Of a DNA stretch of 37,897 nt, positions 4,482-37,811 are shown piece after piece (within the stretch, counting starts at the first letter, position 1; every line of letters starts with the position of its first letter). The position numbers and the translations under genes are program-made. The notes below the pieces were generated by a model. That model saw only the letters and a program-made list of their open reading frames with translations. It was not told where the DNA came from and ran no database searches. This DNA is from an uncultured Prevotellaceae bacterium (lineage in GTDB: Bacteria; Bacteroidota; Bacteroidia; Bacteroidales; Bacteroidaceae): contig CAMOSA010000002.1 of the NCBI GenBank assembly GCA_946624335.1, positions 1-37,897 of the forward strand. Reading direction: 5' to 3'.

Positions 4482-4604
4482 ATTCAATTCACAATTGATA
4501 ATTCACAATTCATAATTCAAAGTTCACAATCTGTCACGGAGGTGTTGGAGGCTTATGCCTGCACATCGAAGTAATTGTGAATTATGAATTGTGAATTGTG
4601 AATT
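4482..4604. repeat. Inverted pair of AATTCAC heptamer arrays between rpmF and fabH
   Basis: Left AATTCAC AATTGAT AATTCAC AATTCAT AATTCAA AGTTCAC; right ATTGTGAATTATGAATTGTGAATTGTGAATTC; can form a stem-loop. Confidence 0.8.
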
Positions 4605-4614
4605 CTTTTTTGTT

Positions 4615-5616: not shown

Positions 5617-5631
5617 GGGATGCGCTATGCT

Positions 5632-5762
5632 CATCCCTCACCCCTCACCCCTCAACCCTCAACGCTCAACCCTCAACTCTCACCCCTCAACGCTCAACCC
5701 TCACCCCTCAACGCTCACCCCTCAACGCTCAACGCTCAACCCTCACCCCTCAACGCTCAACC
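5632..5762. repeat. CTCAACN/CTCACCC heptamer array between fabH and era
   Basis: About 18 units of 7 nt (CTCAACC, CTCAACG, CTCAACT, CTCACCC). Confidence 0.88.
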
Positions 5763-5781: not shown

Positions 5782-6663
5782 ATGCACAAATCTGGTTTCG
5801 TAAACATAGTCGGCAACCCCAACGTCGGCAAGTCGACGCTCATGAATCTTCTCGTGGGCGAGCGTATCTCTATCGCCACCTTCAAGGCCCAGACGACGCG
5901 CCATCGCATCATGGGCATCCTCAACACGCCGGACATGCAGATCTGCTTCTCCGACACGCCCGGCGTGCTCAAGCCCAACTATAAGCTTCAGGAGCAGATG
6001 CTGCAGTTCTCCGAGAGCGCGTTGCAGGACGCCGACGTGCTGCTCTACGTCACCGACATGGTGGAGACGCCCGACAAGAACGCCGACTTCCTGCAGAAGG
6101 TGCAGCAGATGAAGGTGCCCGTCCTCGTGCTCATCAACAAGATCGACCTGAGCAACCAGGAGGCCCTCGCACAGAAGGTCGACGAGTGGCACGGCGTGCT
6201 GCCGCAGGCCGAGGTCTTCCCCATCTCTGCCCTCCACCGCTTCGGCGTCGACGTCGTGCTCAACCGCATCAAGCAGTTGCTGCCCGAGTCGCCCGCCTAC
6301 TTCGATAAGGACACGTGGACCGACAAGCCCGCCCGCTTCTTCGTCACCGAGATCATACGCGAGAAGATCCTCCTTTATTATGATAAGGAGGTGCCATACG
6401 CCGTCGAGCCCGTCGTCGAGAAGTTCCACGAGGAAGAAAAGCTCATCCGCATCGAGGCCGTCATATACGTCGAGCGTGAGTCGCAGAAAGGCATCATCAT
6501 AGGCCATCAGGGCGTAGCCCTCAAGCGCGTCTCCACCGAGGCACGTCGCGAGCTCGAGCGCTTCTTCGGCAAGCGCATCTACCTCCAGTGCTTCGTCAAG
6601 GTCGATAAGGATTGGCGCAGCTCCGAACGGGCGATGAAGCAGTTCGGGTACGACCTTAATTAA
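5782..6663 (+). CDS. era: GTPase Era
   Basis: [30 protein letters not shown]...QTTRHRIMGI...DTPGV...NKIDL plus C-terminal KH domain. The ORF extends to 5620 only through repeat-encoded sequence. Confidence 0.94.
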   Translation: MHKSGFVNIVGNPNVGKSTLMNLLVGERISIATFKAQTTRHRIMGILNTPDMQICFSDTPGVLKPNYKLQEQMLQFSESALQDADVLLYVTDMVETPDKNADFLQKVQQMKVPVLVLINKIDLSNQEALAQKVDEWHGVLPQAEVFPISALHRFGVDVVLNRIKQLLPESPAYFDKDTWTDKPARFFVTEIIREKILLYYDKEVPYAVEPVVEKFHEEEKLIRIEAVIYVERESQKGIIIGHQGVALKRVSTEARRELERFFGKRIYLQCFVKVDKDWRSSERAMKQFGYDLN

Positions 6664-6818
6664 TGAAAAATGAAAGAGTGAAAAGTGAAAAATAAAAATT
6701 ACGATTGACAATAGATAAGGTAACCCTTATTTTTCACTTTTCATTTTTCACTTTTCACTCTTCGCCCTCTCCTAAGTAACTCTTATTTTTCACTTTTCAT
6801 TTTTCACTTTTCACTCTT
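6664..6818. repeat. TTTTCAC/GTGAAAA heptamer arrays (one reverse, two forward) between era and der
   Basis: TGAAAAATGAAAGAGTGAAAAGTGAAAAATAA followed by two near-identical CTTATTTTTCACTTTTCATTTTTCACTTTTCACTCTT blocks. Confidence 0.85.
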
Positions 6819-8131: not shown

Positions 8132-8356
8132 GACGTCCGGTGCAAGCACGACGGAGGGCTGGGTTAATATGCAATATACAACCTTTCATTGGTGTCCGGT
8201 AACCTTTCCTTGCGGGCACGCCTGAGGTGTGCCACTTTCAGCGTCCGTCTGTATCCAAGCCCCTTCTGGGGAGGTTTTTCAGCGAGATGCATCAACGAAG
8301 CCTCCATGGTAGGTCGTATGGATCGTTACCTGCCACTAATAGTTTTTTTCAAAATC

Positions 8357-8837
8357 ATCCTACACTCCTACACCTTTTGTACTTTATTGGCTGAATACCA
8401 ACGGCCTAAGTGGGTGTAGGATGGGGTGTAGGATGGGTGTAGGGGTGTAGGATGAAGGCCGAAAACAGGCCTTTCACACAGAATGACCCGCCCCTCTTTT
8501 CCCGACTGTCAGATCGCTTAGCGTTATCGTACTGCGTGTTCCCGCAGATATTCATGACGATATGTCCGAGTCCCACCAATGGGAATTGCGAGTTCCACTA
8601 ATGGGACTTGCTGATAGACTTAGGTAACAAAGGTTGAAGACCTGACGCTCCGGCACGCTCTGCGTAGCAGCGCCAACCAATCTGGCAGACGGTCAAAAAA
8701 GGGCGGGCTATTCTGTGAAAAACCGTTAAATCGGCTCTTATCCTACACCTCCTACACCCATCCTACACCCCATCCTACACCCACTTAGGCCGCTGGTATT
8801 CAATCAATAAAGTACAAAAGGTGTAGGAGTGTAGGAT
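8357..8837. repeat. Fold-back (long imperfect inverted repeat) element, copy A
   Basis: Begins ATCCTACACTCCTACACCTTTTGTACTTTATTG and ends with its near reverse complement; GGTGTAGGATG subrepeats in both arms; central dyad around 8569-8608. Near-identical to the reverse complement of 32493-32972. Confidence 0.9.
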
Positions 8838-9011
8838 GAATCCGGAAAAAATAAATTGTATGCTGTGCTTCGCCGGCACTAGCTAACCCTTTATGGCCCT
8901 AAATCAGCCCTAAATCAAATAGTCATCTATATTATCTCACATGCGCTCGAACAAAGCTTAGCGCGTGTCATTCGTGGTTTAACCCAGATCGGTCATTATA
9001 GGGTTTAAAAG

Positions 9012-12601: not shown

Positions 12602-13612
<1,011 letters not shown>

Positions 13613-15344
13613 AAGAGTGAGTATTCGACACGTGAGCTGCTGGGATGGTTCTGGCGAATCTTCAGGCAGGTGAAGCTGCAGTCGTTCATTAACGCTGCGA
13701 GCGGCATCATCCGTGTGGGTCTCGACTTTGCCTTCATCTGGGCAACGAAGCAGGCTATCGACCTGGCCACCGACAATGCGGGTTCTGCGGGTCTGTTGCC
13801 TAAGCCTTCGACGCTCTTCGCGGCTGGTGCCCTGCTCATCGGCATCATGGCGCTGCAGATGGCATTGGGCTACGTAGGCCGATGGATAGCAGCGCTGCTG
13901 GGCGTGGAATCGCAGAACCGTATGCAGCGTTATATCTTTGAGCATCTGTTGCGTAGCGAGTGGCGCGGCAAGGAGCAGCGCCATAGCGGCGATGTGCTGA
14001 ACCGTCTGGTCAGCGACAGCCAGACCGTCGTGTCCGTCGTCACGGACACCTTGCCCCAGGCGCTGGCCGTCATCGTCCGCCTCGTCTGCGCCTTCTTCTT
14101 CCTCTTCTCGGTCGATTCGATGCTGGCCGTCAGCGTCACCGTAGTCCTGCCCGTATTCATCCTGCTGAGCCGCCTTTATATCCGCCAGATGCGTGCCATC
14201 ACCCGCGACGTGAGGCAGACAGACAGCCGCGTGCAGTCTACATTACAAGAGAGTGTGCAACACCACTTGGTGCTGAAGACGCTGGAGCGCGTGCCGCTGA
14301 TGGTGTCGACGCTCTCGCAGCTGCAGTCCACGCTGCGGCGCCAGGTGCGCCATCGCACTCTGTTCTCGTCGACGTCGAACCTGGTGCTGAACATTGGTTT
14401 CGGCGGCGCCTATCTCTTCACCTTCCTCTGGAGCGTCAACCGTCTGTCCGAGGGTACGATCACCTTCGGCATGATGACGGCTTTCATCCAGCTCTGCGGA
14501 CAGATACAGGGCCCGTTCCGCGACCTGACGCGTTTTATACCGTCCATCATCAGCAGTTTCACCGCTGCCGAACGTCTGATGGAACTGGAGGAGGCGCCAC
14601 TGGAGGAGGACGGCGAGCCTGTGCGCTTCGAGCATGGCGCCGGCATACGTGTCAGCGACGTCACCTTCGCCTACGACGATCACAGCCGCACCATCCTCGA
14701 CCATGTCAACTATGATTTTCCCCCCGGTTCGACGACAGCCATCATGGGCGAGACCGGGGCTGGCAAGACGACGCTCATCCGGCTCATCCTGGCTCTGCTC
14801 AAGCCTGTCAGCGGTGAGGTGGTGATGTATGGTCCTGGCGAGGGCGAGGCGTCACCCGTCAGTCCCCGCACACGCTGTAACCTCGTCTATGTCCCGCAGG
14901 GCAATTCGCTCTTCAGCGGTTCGCTGCGCTGGAACCTCAGGCTCGGCAAGCCCGACGCCACCGACGAGCAGATGCACGAGGCGCTCAGCCTGGCTTGTGC
15001 CGACTTCGTACAGCTGTTGCCCGAAGGCCTCGACACACGTATCGGCGAGGGGGGCGCGGGGCTCTCGGAGGGACAGGCACAGCGCATCGCCATAGCACGT
15101 GCACTGCTCAGGCAAGGGTCGTTGCTACTGCTCGACGAGGCGACCAGTGCGCTCGACCAGCTGACCGAGCGGCAGCTGATAGAAAACATCATCAAGTATA
15201 ACAGCCGGCTGGCGGTCAAGCCGACGCTCATCTTTATCACCCATCGGCCTGCGGTGATCGACTACTGCTCGCAGGTTATCACGCTCAAGAAGGATAACAA
15301 CGGATAACGCATTGAGCGAATAAAAAAGGAATACCCTACTTATT

Positions 15345-17234: not shown

Positions 17235-18710
17235 TTATTGTTGAAGCAGAAAGGCTTTGAAGTCGGCGAAGTCGCTCGTCAGGGGCACAGACTGTTTGGT
17301 GCCGCGCATGAAGGCCTGAAGCTTCTCGGGGATGGGAAGGTCGATGCCGAGAATCCTGTCGACGGTGTCCTTGAACTTTGCGGGGTGCGCTGTCTCGAGG
17401 AAGATGCCAGTCTCTCCGGGCGCAAGCTGCTCCTTTAAGGCACGGTAGCCACAGGCTCCGTGAGGATCGAGGACATAGCCCGTTCGGGCATAGCAGTCGC
17501 GCATGGTGGAGGCTATCTGGTCGTCGCTGTAGGTGGTACCGGTGATGAACGAATGGCCTGCAACGCCACCGTGTAGCGAGGGCAGCGGCTGTACATAGTC
17601 ACGCTGACCTAAGATATCCTGGACGTCCTTACGCCCATAGAGGTCGAGGATGCGTGCGAAGTTGGAGGGGGCGCCGACATCCATGGCATTGGCGATGGTC
17701 TGCTCAGAGGCGCGGGGGGAATAGATGCCCGTTTGGAGGTACTGGAAGAACACGTCGTTGGCATTGTTGGCTGCGATGAAACGCTTGACGGGAAGGCCCA
17801 TGACGTGCCCGAACAGTGCCGAGCAGATATTACCGAAGTTGCCAGAGGGGACACAGACTACAACGTTGTCTGATGACGAATGACGAATGTCGAATGTCGA
17901 ATCAGGTTTACCTTCAGTAGAGACGGGCAACTTACATCCGTCATTCGTCATCCTTCCCGATTCGTCATTCTTCCGTAGCTGTGCATAGGCCCAAAAGTAG
18001 TAGAAAGCCTGCGGCAGGAAGCGCGCCACGTTGATGGAGTTGGCCGAGGTCAGACGCATATGGGCGTTAAGCTCTGGATCCATGAAGGCGGCCTTCACCA
18101 GTGCCTGGCAGTCATCGAAGACGCCGTCGACCTCGATGGCGGTGATGTTCCGGCCGAGCGTCGTGAACTGGCACTCCTGGATAGGCGACACTTTACCCTT
18201 GGGATAAAGGACATAGACGTGAATGCCTTCGACGCCCAGGAAGCCGTTGGCAACGGCCGAACCCGTGTCGCCGGAGGTGGCGACGAGGACGTTGATTAAC
18301 TGACGGCTTGACGATTCACCATTTCCCTTCTCCCCCTCCTGGGCGAGGGACCATTGCAACAGCCTTGCCATGAAACGTGCGCCGACATCCTTGAAGGCCA
18401 ATGTGGGTCCGTGGAAGAGTTCGAGGGCGTAGATATTGGGCTCCACCTCAACGAGGGGGCAGTCGAAGGCGAGGGTGTCGTTGACGATGCGTCGCAGGTC
18501 GGCAGCGGGGATGTCCTCGCCGAAGAAGGCTTCGGCGACGCGATAGGCTGTCTCCTGGAAGGTGAGGCCTGCTATCTCGTCGAAGAACGAGGCCGGTAGC
18601 TGCTTGATGACTTCGGGCATATACAAGCCGCGGTCTTCGGCCAGACCGCGTACGACAGCATCGCGGAGTGTGGCGTAAGCTGCGTTATGATTGGTAGAAT
18701 AGTATTTCAT
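17235..18710 (-). CDS. thrC: Threonine synthase
   Basis: MKYYSTNHNAAYATLRDAVVRGLAEDRGLYMPE...TLAFKDVGARFMA...VLVATSGDTGSAVANGF...VPSGNFGNICSALFG. Confidence 0.95.
   Translation of the reverse strand: MKYYSTNHNAAYATLRDAVVRGLAEDRGLYMPEVIKQLPASFFDEIAGLTFQETAYRVAEAFFGEDIPAADLRRIVNDTLAFDCPLVEVEPNIYALELFHGPTLAFKDVGARFMARLLQWSLAQEGEKGNGESSSRQLINVLVATSGDTGSAVANGFLGVEGIHVYVLYPKGKVSPIQECQFTTLGRNITAIEVDGVFDDCQALVKAAFMDPELNAHMRLTSANSINVARFLPQAFYYFWAYAQLRKNDESGRMTNDGCKLPVSTEGKPDSTFDIRHSSSDNVVVCVPSGNFGNICSALFGHVMGLPVKRFIAANNANDVFFQYLQTGIYSPRASEQTIANAMDVGAPSNFARILDLYGRKDVQDILGQRDYVQPLPSLHGGVAGHSFITGTTYSDDQIASTMRDCYARTGYVLDPHGACGYRALKEQLAPGETGIFLETAHPAKFKDTVDRILGIDLPIPEKLQAFMRGTKQSVPLTSDFADFKAFLLQQ
17871..17975. 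repeat. Inverted pair of GACGAAT/ATTCGTC heptamers inside thrC
   Basis: TGATGACGAATGACGAATGTCGAATGTCGAATC ... CGTCATTCGTCATCCTTCCCGATTCGTCATTC. Confidence 0.78.
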
Positions 18711-26392: not shown

Positions 26393-29023
<2,631 letters not shown>

Positions 29024-32404: not shown

Positions 32405-32492
32405 GAACTGTTAGATTGATGGATGATTTAAGTTCATAAGGGGTCTGTAAGTGCCAGCGAAGGACAGCATACAAATTATTTTTTCCGGATTC

Positions 32493-32972
32493 ATCCTACA
32501 CTCCTACACCTTTTGCACTTCATTGCCTGATTATCTGCAGCCTACGAGGTGTATGATGGGGTGTAGGATGGGTGTAGGAGGTGTAGGATGAGGGCCGATT
32601 TAACGGTTTTTCACAGAATAGCCCGCCCTTTTTTGACCGTCTGCCAGATTGGTTGGCGCTGCTACGCAGAGCGTGCCGGAGCGTCAGGTCTTCAACCTTT
32701 GTTACCTAAGTCTATCAGCAAGTCCCATTAGTGGAACTCGCAATTCCCATTGGTGGGACTCGGACATATCGTCATGAATATCTGCGGGAACACGCAGTAC
32801 GATAACGCTAAGCGATCTGACAGTCGGGAAAAGAGGGGCGGGTCATTCTGTGTGAAAGGCCTGTTTTCGGCCTTCATCCTACACCCCTACACCCATCCTA
32901 CACCCCATCCTACACCCATTTATAACGTTGGTATTCAGCCAATAAAGTGCAAAAGGTGTAGGAGTGTAGGAT
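32493..32972. repeat. Fold-back element, copy B (inverted relative to copy A)
   Basis: Reverse complement matches copy A through its ~280 bp centre without a difference seen by eye; 480 vs 481 bp overall. Confidence 0.9.
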
Positions 32973-33207
32973 GATTGGCGAAAAAAATTATAGCATACGG
33001 TAGAGATCCATACGACCTACGGTGGAGGCTTTGTCGATGCCTCTCGCTGAATAACCTCGTCAGAGAGAGGGGGGACAGGCACAGACAGTGGCACAACTTC
33101 GGCGTGCCCTCAATGAAAGTTTACCGGACACCAATGATTCGAATTATGTTAATCAGCGCATAACGGTCTTATGAACGATTGGGGGCTAAGGTTCATGTGC
33201 GGTTGGG

Positions 33208-37519: not shown

Positions 37520-37567
37520 TCTGTTGTTTGGCGTCACCCGTCCTCGAGGGTCGTGCCGGGGCTTTCA

Positions 37568-37765
37568 GGGCGGCAGGTCTTCTGACTCGTTCCCGGAACG
37601 AACGCCTTCCCAGCTCTTGGCACGTGAATGAATCAACAGATTAACCCATTACTCATCAACGGAAGCCAAAGCCAGTGGCGCGTGTGTTCGCCCGATGACG
37701 GAACTTACAGCAGCGGGACTGTGCAGGATTCGCACCTGCTTCCCTCTTAGGCGATATACCTATAT
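37568..37765 (-). promoter_or_regulatory. Cobalamin (B12) riboswitch
   Basis: Reverse strand reads GGGAAGCAGGTGCGAATCCTGCACAGTCCCGCTGCTGTAAG...GCCACTGG...GGGAAGGCGTTCGTTCCGGGAACGAGTCAGAAGACCTGCC, the conserved cobalamin-element blocks; immediately upstream of btuB-like gene. Confidence 0.95.
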
Positions 37766-37811
37766 AATATATATAAGGTATTACCGCAACCGCTCTTGTT
37801 AAGAAATGCGA

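Follow-up and report, generated by a model that had tools for sequence, protein, structure and literature searches.

Palindromic repeats translated within proteins have hitherto been regarded as peculiar to Rickettsia and a few other organisms. The Rickettsia palindromic elements (RPEs; Ogata 2000, 2002, as reviewed in PMC10969869 and PMC2229807) are stem-loops of 105-146 bp, and 19 ORFs of conserved genes contain one in frame (PMC2229807); in-frame insertions in non-structured segments are also described in Wolbachia and Methanocaldococcus jannaschii (PMC2996958). The insert that we describe here, in the threonine synthase gene thrC, resembles the RPEs in several features. RPEs are hairpins of ~105-150 bp with no known transposase, and the thrC insert is palindromic and 105 nt long; both kinds are dispersed, lying between genes as well as in frame within unrelated conserved genes; and both encode a conserved peptide located in non-structured segments (residues 255-277 of the ThrC model have a pLDDT <50). 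They differ in the host phylum, in the arms, which are here period-7 satellites of several dialects, and in the several further repeat families that here occupy the same loops. As the comparison was one of features, we would say that the family works like an RPE, not that it is an RPE.

Other systems share part of this architecture. The coding palindromes of Wolbachia and M. jannaschii and the PARCELs are likewise palindromic coding DNA in protein genes, but PARCELs consist of amphipathic repeat domains that are arranged in tandem and go with membrane proteins, whereas here a single short insert lies in housekeeping enzymes (PMC2996958). The long simple repeats of Mrazek 2007 and the TAACTGA arrays, as presented in PMC4679880, are likewise 7-bp direct repeats, some Bacteroidetes included, and stop-codon limits on the orientation of TAACTGA repeats have been noted (PMC4679880). 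They are mostly intergenic, direct and of a single sequence, whereas the repeats here are inverted around a core, use several heptamers and are coding; the TAACTGA unit is not among the element heptamers. The BrickBuilt MITE of Porphyromonas gingivalis, also in the Bacteroidales, combines a tandem satellite with inverted-repeat ends as well, but its units are of 23 bp and it is always intergenic (PMC4596501). No such elements were found for Bacteroidetes or Prevotella in the literature searched, most subscription papers being outside its scope. Our main reading, to which we give a probability of about 0.87, is that the thrC insert belongs to a family of dispersed, non-autonomous palindromic elements in a rumen Bacteroidaceae genus and is carried as a tolerated passenger.

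The thrC insert and its predicted structure

The window, meaning the whole stretch of 37,897 nucleotides that was analysed, is contig C2 of a 2.1-Mb draft genome (G000) that is 70% complete; a cobalamin riboswitch lies at 37555-37809 on its minus strand. The named relatives of its ThrC, which is 80% identical in relatives, are mostly rumen Bacteroidaceae/Prevotellaceae MAGs. The features of the gene are as follows.

17235..18710, minus strand: thrC, threonine synthase (491 aa; Pfam Thr_synth_N and PALP), host of the insert
17868..17972, minus strand: palindromic insert, translated as approximately residues 247-281 (KNDESGRMTNDGCKLPVSTEGKPDSTFDIRHSSSD), from 110 aligned ThrC loci and the hairpin z score
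17943..17972, minus strand: left arm of the insert (5' on the coding strand), GAATGAC-type heptamers broken by TCGGGAAGG, from sequence and repeats
17896..17942, minus strand: conserved core palindrome of 47 nt, encoding DGCKLPVSTEGKPDS in frame 0, from model R1
17868..17904, minus strand: right arm of the insert, ATTCGAC/ATTCGTC heptamers overlapping the core edge (TRF 17873-17902)
18300..18350, minus strand: putative second variable loop of ThrC (SLAQEGEKGNGESSSRQ), from the alignment

Results showed that the surplus of ThrC over its relatives amounts to ~29 residues located between AQL and VVVCVPSGNFGN, which bears out the ~30-aa insertion claimed by an earlier sequence-only reading. The linker had been said to be normally short, and indeed the loop is 41 aa long here and mostly 10-14 aa among the 93 loops that could be delimited, while ~3 residues separate the two corresponding aligned blocks in E. 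coli ThrC (1vb3); the Bacteroidales orthologs in the alignment have no conserved linker of similar length. The 105-bp block proposed at 17871-17975 is real, with its position 3 nt off (17868-17972). The second variable loop appears to resemble a different palindromic repeat family, one seen there in relatives.

We also looked at the protein in an AlphaFold2 model built from 30 ThrC sequences (mean pLDDT 81), whose best counterpart in the PDB is E. coli ThrC 1vb3 (TM 0.78/0.88). Residues 255-277, flanked by a helix (227-250) and a strand (283-288), are the sole segment below a pLDDT of 50. The model thus predicts disorder for the insert, as a loop on an ordinary, intact host fold; structural modelling for a surface loop had been proposed earlier. 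PSGNFGN is found at the far end of strand 283-288, which would place the insert away from the active site. Tryptic peptides spanning the insert, such as MTNDGCK or LPVSTEGKPDSTFDIR, can be predicted from the ThrC sequence.

At the DNA level, the coding strand of the insert (105 nt) reads AAGAATGACGAATCGGGAAGGATGACGAATGACGGATGTAAGTTGCCCGTCTCTACTGAAGGTAAACCTGATTCGACATTCGACATTCGTCATTCGTCATCAGAC. The inverted pair of heptamer arrays noticed earlier is real, as supported by TRF (an ATGACGA x4.3 array at 17873-17902), by the period-7 census and by folding, in which the hairpin is better than those of shuffles (DNA z -3.2, RNA z -3.0). The "~35 nt spacer" of the first description is present as well, but it is the conserved palindromic core of a family and not filler. 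Rfam gave zero matches to the insert at the gathering score; a mir-9186 match, scoring 22 bits where the gathering score is 73, was rejected as a chance hairpin resemblance.

The dispersed hairpin family and its heptamer arms

We found a second copy in purL, on contig C71 of the same genome, with 76% DNA identity over 121 bp including arms and spacer. It is read in the same frame as the thrC insert with 60% peptide identity (YPRNDELRMTNEGYKLPDQAEGISNSSFDTRHSS against LRKNDESGRMTNDGCKLPVSTEGKPDSTFDIRHSS), and the spacer common to both is palindromic, approximately AGTTACCTTC-N7-GAAGGTAAYT. The core, an imperfect palindrome of ~47 nt (GARGAATACAAGTTACCTTC-N7-GAAGGTAAYTCTTATTCKTC), is common to 72 elements in eight genomes of the genus, and 36 of the 47 positions of its consensus agree with the reverse complement. 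Model R1, built from an alignment of 12 cores, matches at least 20 places in the source genome (census drawing on ~832 kb of that genome, together with pattern and model searches), many places in each of three congeners (G003, G042, G048) and one place each in G015, G016, G020 and G036. The best E value on sequences outside the training set is 1e-8; the thrC core, which belonged to that set, scores 5.5e-5. With strict filters, R1 did not find the core in 32 Bacteroidales genomes representing one per other family. The thrC insert is thus one copy of a multi-copy hairpin repeat family sited between genes and inside unrelated genes. A search for the block elsewhere in the genome had been proposed earlier and yields related copies in purL and other genes; what the sequence-only reading overlooked is the dispersed family itself, with its conserved core and one preferred frame in many genes.

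Two further features of the window bear on the definition of the family.

6662..6815: intergenic relative between era and der, with a GTGAAAA arm, a core at 6687-6735 (R1 E 0.02) and TTTTCAC arms
27625..27660, minus strand: in-frame heptamer array of another dialect in alaS (alanyl-tRNA synthetase), core absent

The architecture of the thrC insert had been equated with that of two intergenic hairpins. This is right for era-der, which has the core, flanked as in other copies by the heptamer GTGAAAA/TTTTCAC, but not for the hairpin upstream of fabH (4486-4607), where the inverted heptamers are of another type and a core match is absent. Judging by its sequence, the alaS array appears to be the same kind of phenomenon as the thrC insert minus the core.

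Heptamer arrays are a general feature of this genome, as 38 period-7 arrays were counted in 438 kb against none in block shuffles, nearly every other non-multiple period having at most 10 in the same 438 kb, and period 22 giving a second, weaker signal (14 arrays). With at most 2 mismatches allowed, GACGAATGACGAATGA has 321 matches across the genome, whereas its reversed control has 2. These data bear on the idea that heptamer slippage in a flexible thrC loop made the insert in place, without any dispersed element. Such local growth could draw on the abundance of period-7 arrays of many sequences in this genome, on the predominance of heptamers among the long simple repeats of many bacteria (Mrazek 2007, cited in PMC4679880) and on intragenic arrays that are core-free, as in alaS. 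Yet slippage at a single site cannot yield one core and one peptide across unrelated genes and species, and the purL copy together with the R1 matches outside the training set largely refutes local growth, which we consider extremely unlikely.

The heptamer units in the elements are of the types GACGAAT, GAAGAAT and GAAAAGT, and they form dialects: nearly all GAAGA in G048, chiefly GACGA plus GAAAA in G000 and G042. Both arms are of the same dialect in 54 of 67 elements, where 35.5 would be expected and the maximum reached over 2000 within-genome permutations is 46. Arm identity within an element is 0.668, compared to 0.674 between elements of the same dialect (P = 0.65). Element-specific correction of one arm by the other is therefore unsupported, as the arms agree no further than the dialect level.

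Other repeats were noticed alongside. Long CTCAACC / GAGAGTTGA heptamer arrays of 18-19 units, with the core absent, lie at 5628-5762 and 13480-13614 of the window, and in two other loci (L184, L185) several ORFs contain a further coding repeat, NPPLGSAASLSEEPSTLNPQPSTLNPQP, along with CTCAACC heptamers. A near-palindromic element of ~500 bp occurs at 8351-8850 and 32480-32976 in opposite orientations (96% identical). It matches its reverse complement at ~73% identity, has the ends TCATCCTACACTCCTACACC, has additional copies of 77-92% identity in L184, L080, L180 and L284, and gives zero Rfam matches.

Reading frame and host genes

We extracted the 72 elements with their surroundings and called them intragenic when they sat 60 codons or more inside an ORF, which applied to 20 elements and left 52 non-genic. 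Frame 0 is used in 18 of the 20 intragenic elements, giving the peptide (D/E)E.KLPxSxEGNSHS followed by SF..RHSS. On the contrary, among the 104 strand cases of the 52 non-genic cores, frame 0 is open in 30 and frame 1 in 82, so that the share of frame 0 among the open frames of these copies is only 24-53%. The chance of at least 18 of 20 in frame 0 is between 7e-10 and 5e-4, depending on the flank length required to be open; these values assume independent copies and are optimistic, since sites are shared between species (~14 sites). Intragenic copies are stop-free and keep the frame of the host, for which reason translational bypass or removal from the mRNA was rejected. Almost all of them share a single frame and strand, and each therefore adds a similar peptide to its host.

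A dozen or more unrelated genes contain the element, and the identified hosts are housekeeping genes. Hosts include thrC, purL, lpxB, purM, mutS2, queA and a cbiJ-cbiD fusion, genes for an M56/BlaR1-TonB protein, a YfhO-like membrane protein and an IGHMBP2-type helicase, and those for an exo-beta-galactosidase and a glycyl-radical activating enzyme. One host ORF (L241) looks glycosyltransferase-like by eye and matches zero NCBIfam families; for two of the 20 host ORFs, of 271 and 181 aa, no family was matched, and they might not be genes at all. Alignments of PurL, PurM and QueA to solved structures break at the insert and that of LpxB is degraded there, while the PurM of G042 is close to a solved Bacteroidales PurM, the insert excepted. 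A predicted model of PurM was too poor in quality (mean pLDDT 47) for judging the insert. In another locus (L183), a heptamer-encoded stretch (HSSFIIRHSSFVIHHSS...) at 15058-15155 lies in frame ahead of the lpxB ORF and could lengthen LpxB at its N-terminus.

The frame data also weigh on the possibility that the hairpin is retained for mRNA regulation (attenuation, stability or termination), its translation being incidental. The RNA hairpin is stable and many copies are intergenic, as such a role would have it, but intragenic copies maintain a single open frame, and in relatives the corresponding loops are empty or contain unrelated repeats, so that a gene-specific conserved role is not seen. 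We regard this explanation as quite unlikely.

Shared loops and the origin of copies

We asked how the occupied sites are distributed among species. The thrC insert is common by descent with the MAG RGIG2642 (L092), whose copy contains an extra module (TCTCGCTTCGCTC...). The M56 peptidase gene has elements in four species at two sites, in different dialects (GAAAA in G000, GAAGA in G016 and G048), and elements lie at shared sites of two species in lpxB and likewise in yfhO. Since nearly all genomes compared are draft MAGs, the insert might be suspected of being an artefact of metagenome assembly. This is barely credible, as it sits at the homologous site in the independently assembled RGIG2642 and other elements lie in frame at shared sites in several species. 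The high-copy genomes are G000, G003 with G042, and G048, and the sister of the latter, G019, has zero element matches with strict filters. A single origin in one clade was rejected in view of this patchy history.

The loops themselves are variable. In most genomes the PurM loop has 18 native residues. In G042 it is occupied by this element, in G003 and G010 by CCCTCCC palindromes, in G005 by TGGTCAA heptamers and in G014 by two AATTCAA arrays in inverted orientation. Different species of the genus thus have, in frame in this one loop, no fewer than four unrelated repeat families (L258, L290-L319). The ThrC loop, like the PurM loop, holds differing repeat families among relatives, and the unrelated repeats NGQWSM, PSLTGG and STLNSQ occupy the two loops in other genomes. 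Therefore, these sites are permissive and the repeat families interchangeable, which favours tolerance over function of any single peptide. Insertion and loop replacement are indistinguishable here, as native loops at element sites are variable.

An adaptive peptide, for example an interaction segment whose gain at loops was favoured by selection, would fit the conservation of frame and peptide across genes and the persistence of the thrC insert between two species. However, the DNA palindrome leaves the peptide sequence almost no freedom, unrelated repeats fill these PurM and ThrC loops in other genomes, and the ThrC model is disordered at the insert; we hold adaptation to be very unlikely.

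Under the tolerated-passenger reading, the conserved ~47-nt core and the inverted 7-bp repeat arms can fold as one hairpin, and the element would insert more or less anywhere. Selection would then retain intragenic copies only if they are read through in the coding frame and lie in a permissive surface loop, the peptide being a passenger rather than a functional domain, as for the RPEs, and slippage would alter arm length and heptamer variants. We infer mobility from the dispersal of the element, because neither a transposase partner (the search covered Y1) nor a target-site duplication or a clean filled/empty DNA pair was found. Mobilisation by a RAYT was rejected, the Y1 transposase PF01797 not being found in G000 (a genome 70% complete) and giving weak partial matches only in G003, G042 and G048. 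New copies were probably mobilised in trans by a transposase or recombinase absent from the search results; recombination or template switching on the hairpin is a plausible but secondary route, and we think the former likelier. A bolder proposal, that several independent translated palindromic families recolonise the same enzyme loops in rumen Bacteroidaceae while the arms of one such family are rewritten as a set and its core persists, appears doubtful; if true, the rewriting of arm dialects as a set would imply an active template-driven process writing 7-bp units.

In conclusion, RPE-like behaviour is now found in a gut and rumen phylum, with many copies and with loops that hold different repeat families in different species. 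For annotators, such inserts in MAG proteins are likely genuine sequence and not assembly errors. Moreover, the family lends itself to a natural test of the ways in which selfish DNA supplies proteins with new segments, and of the loops that can accept an insertion.
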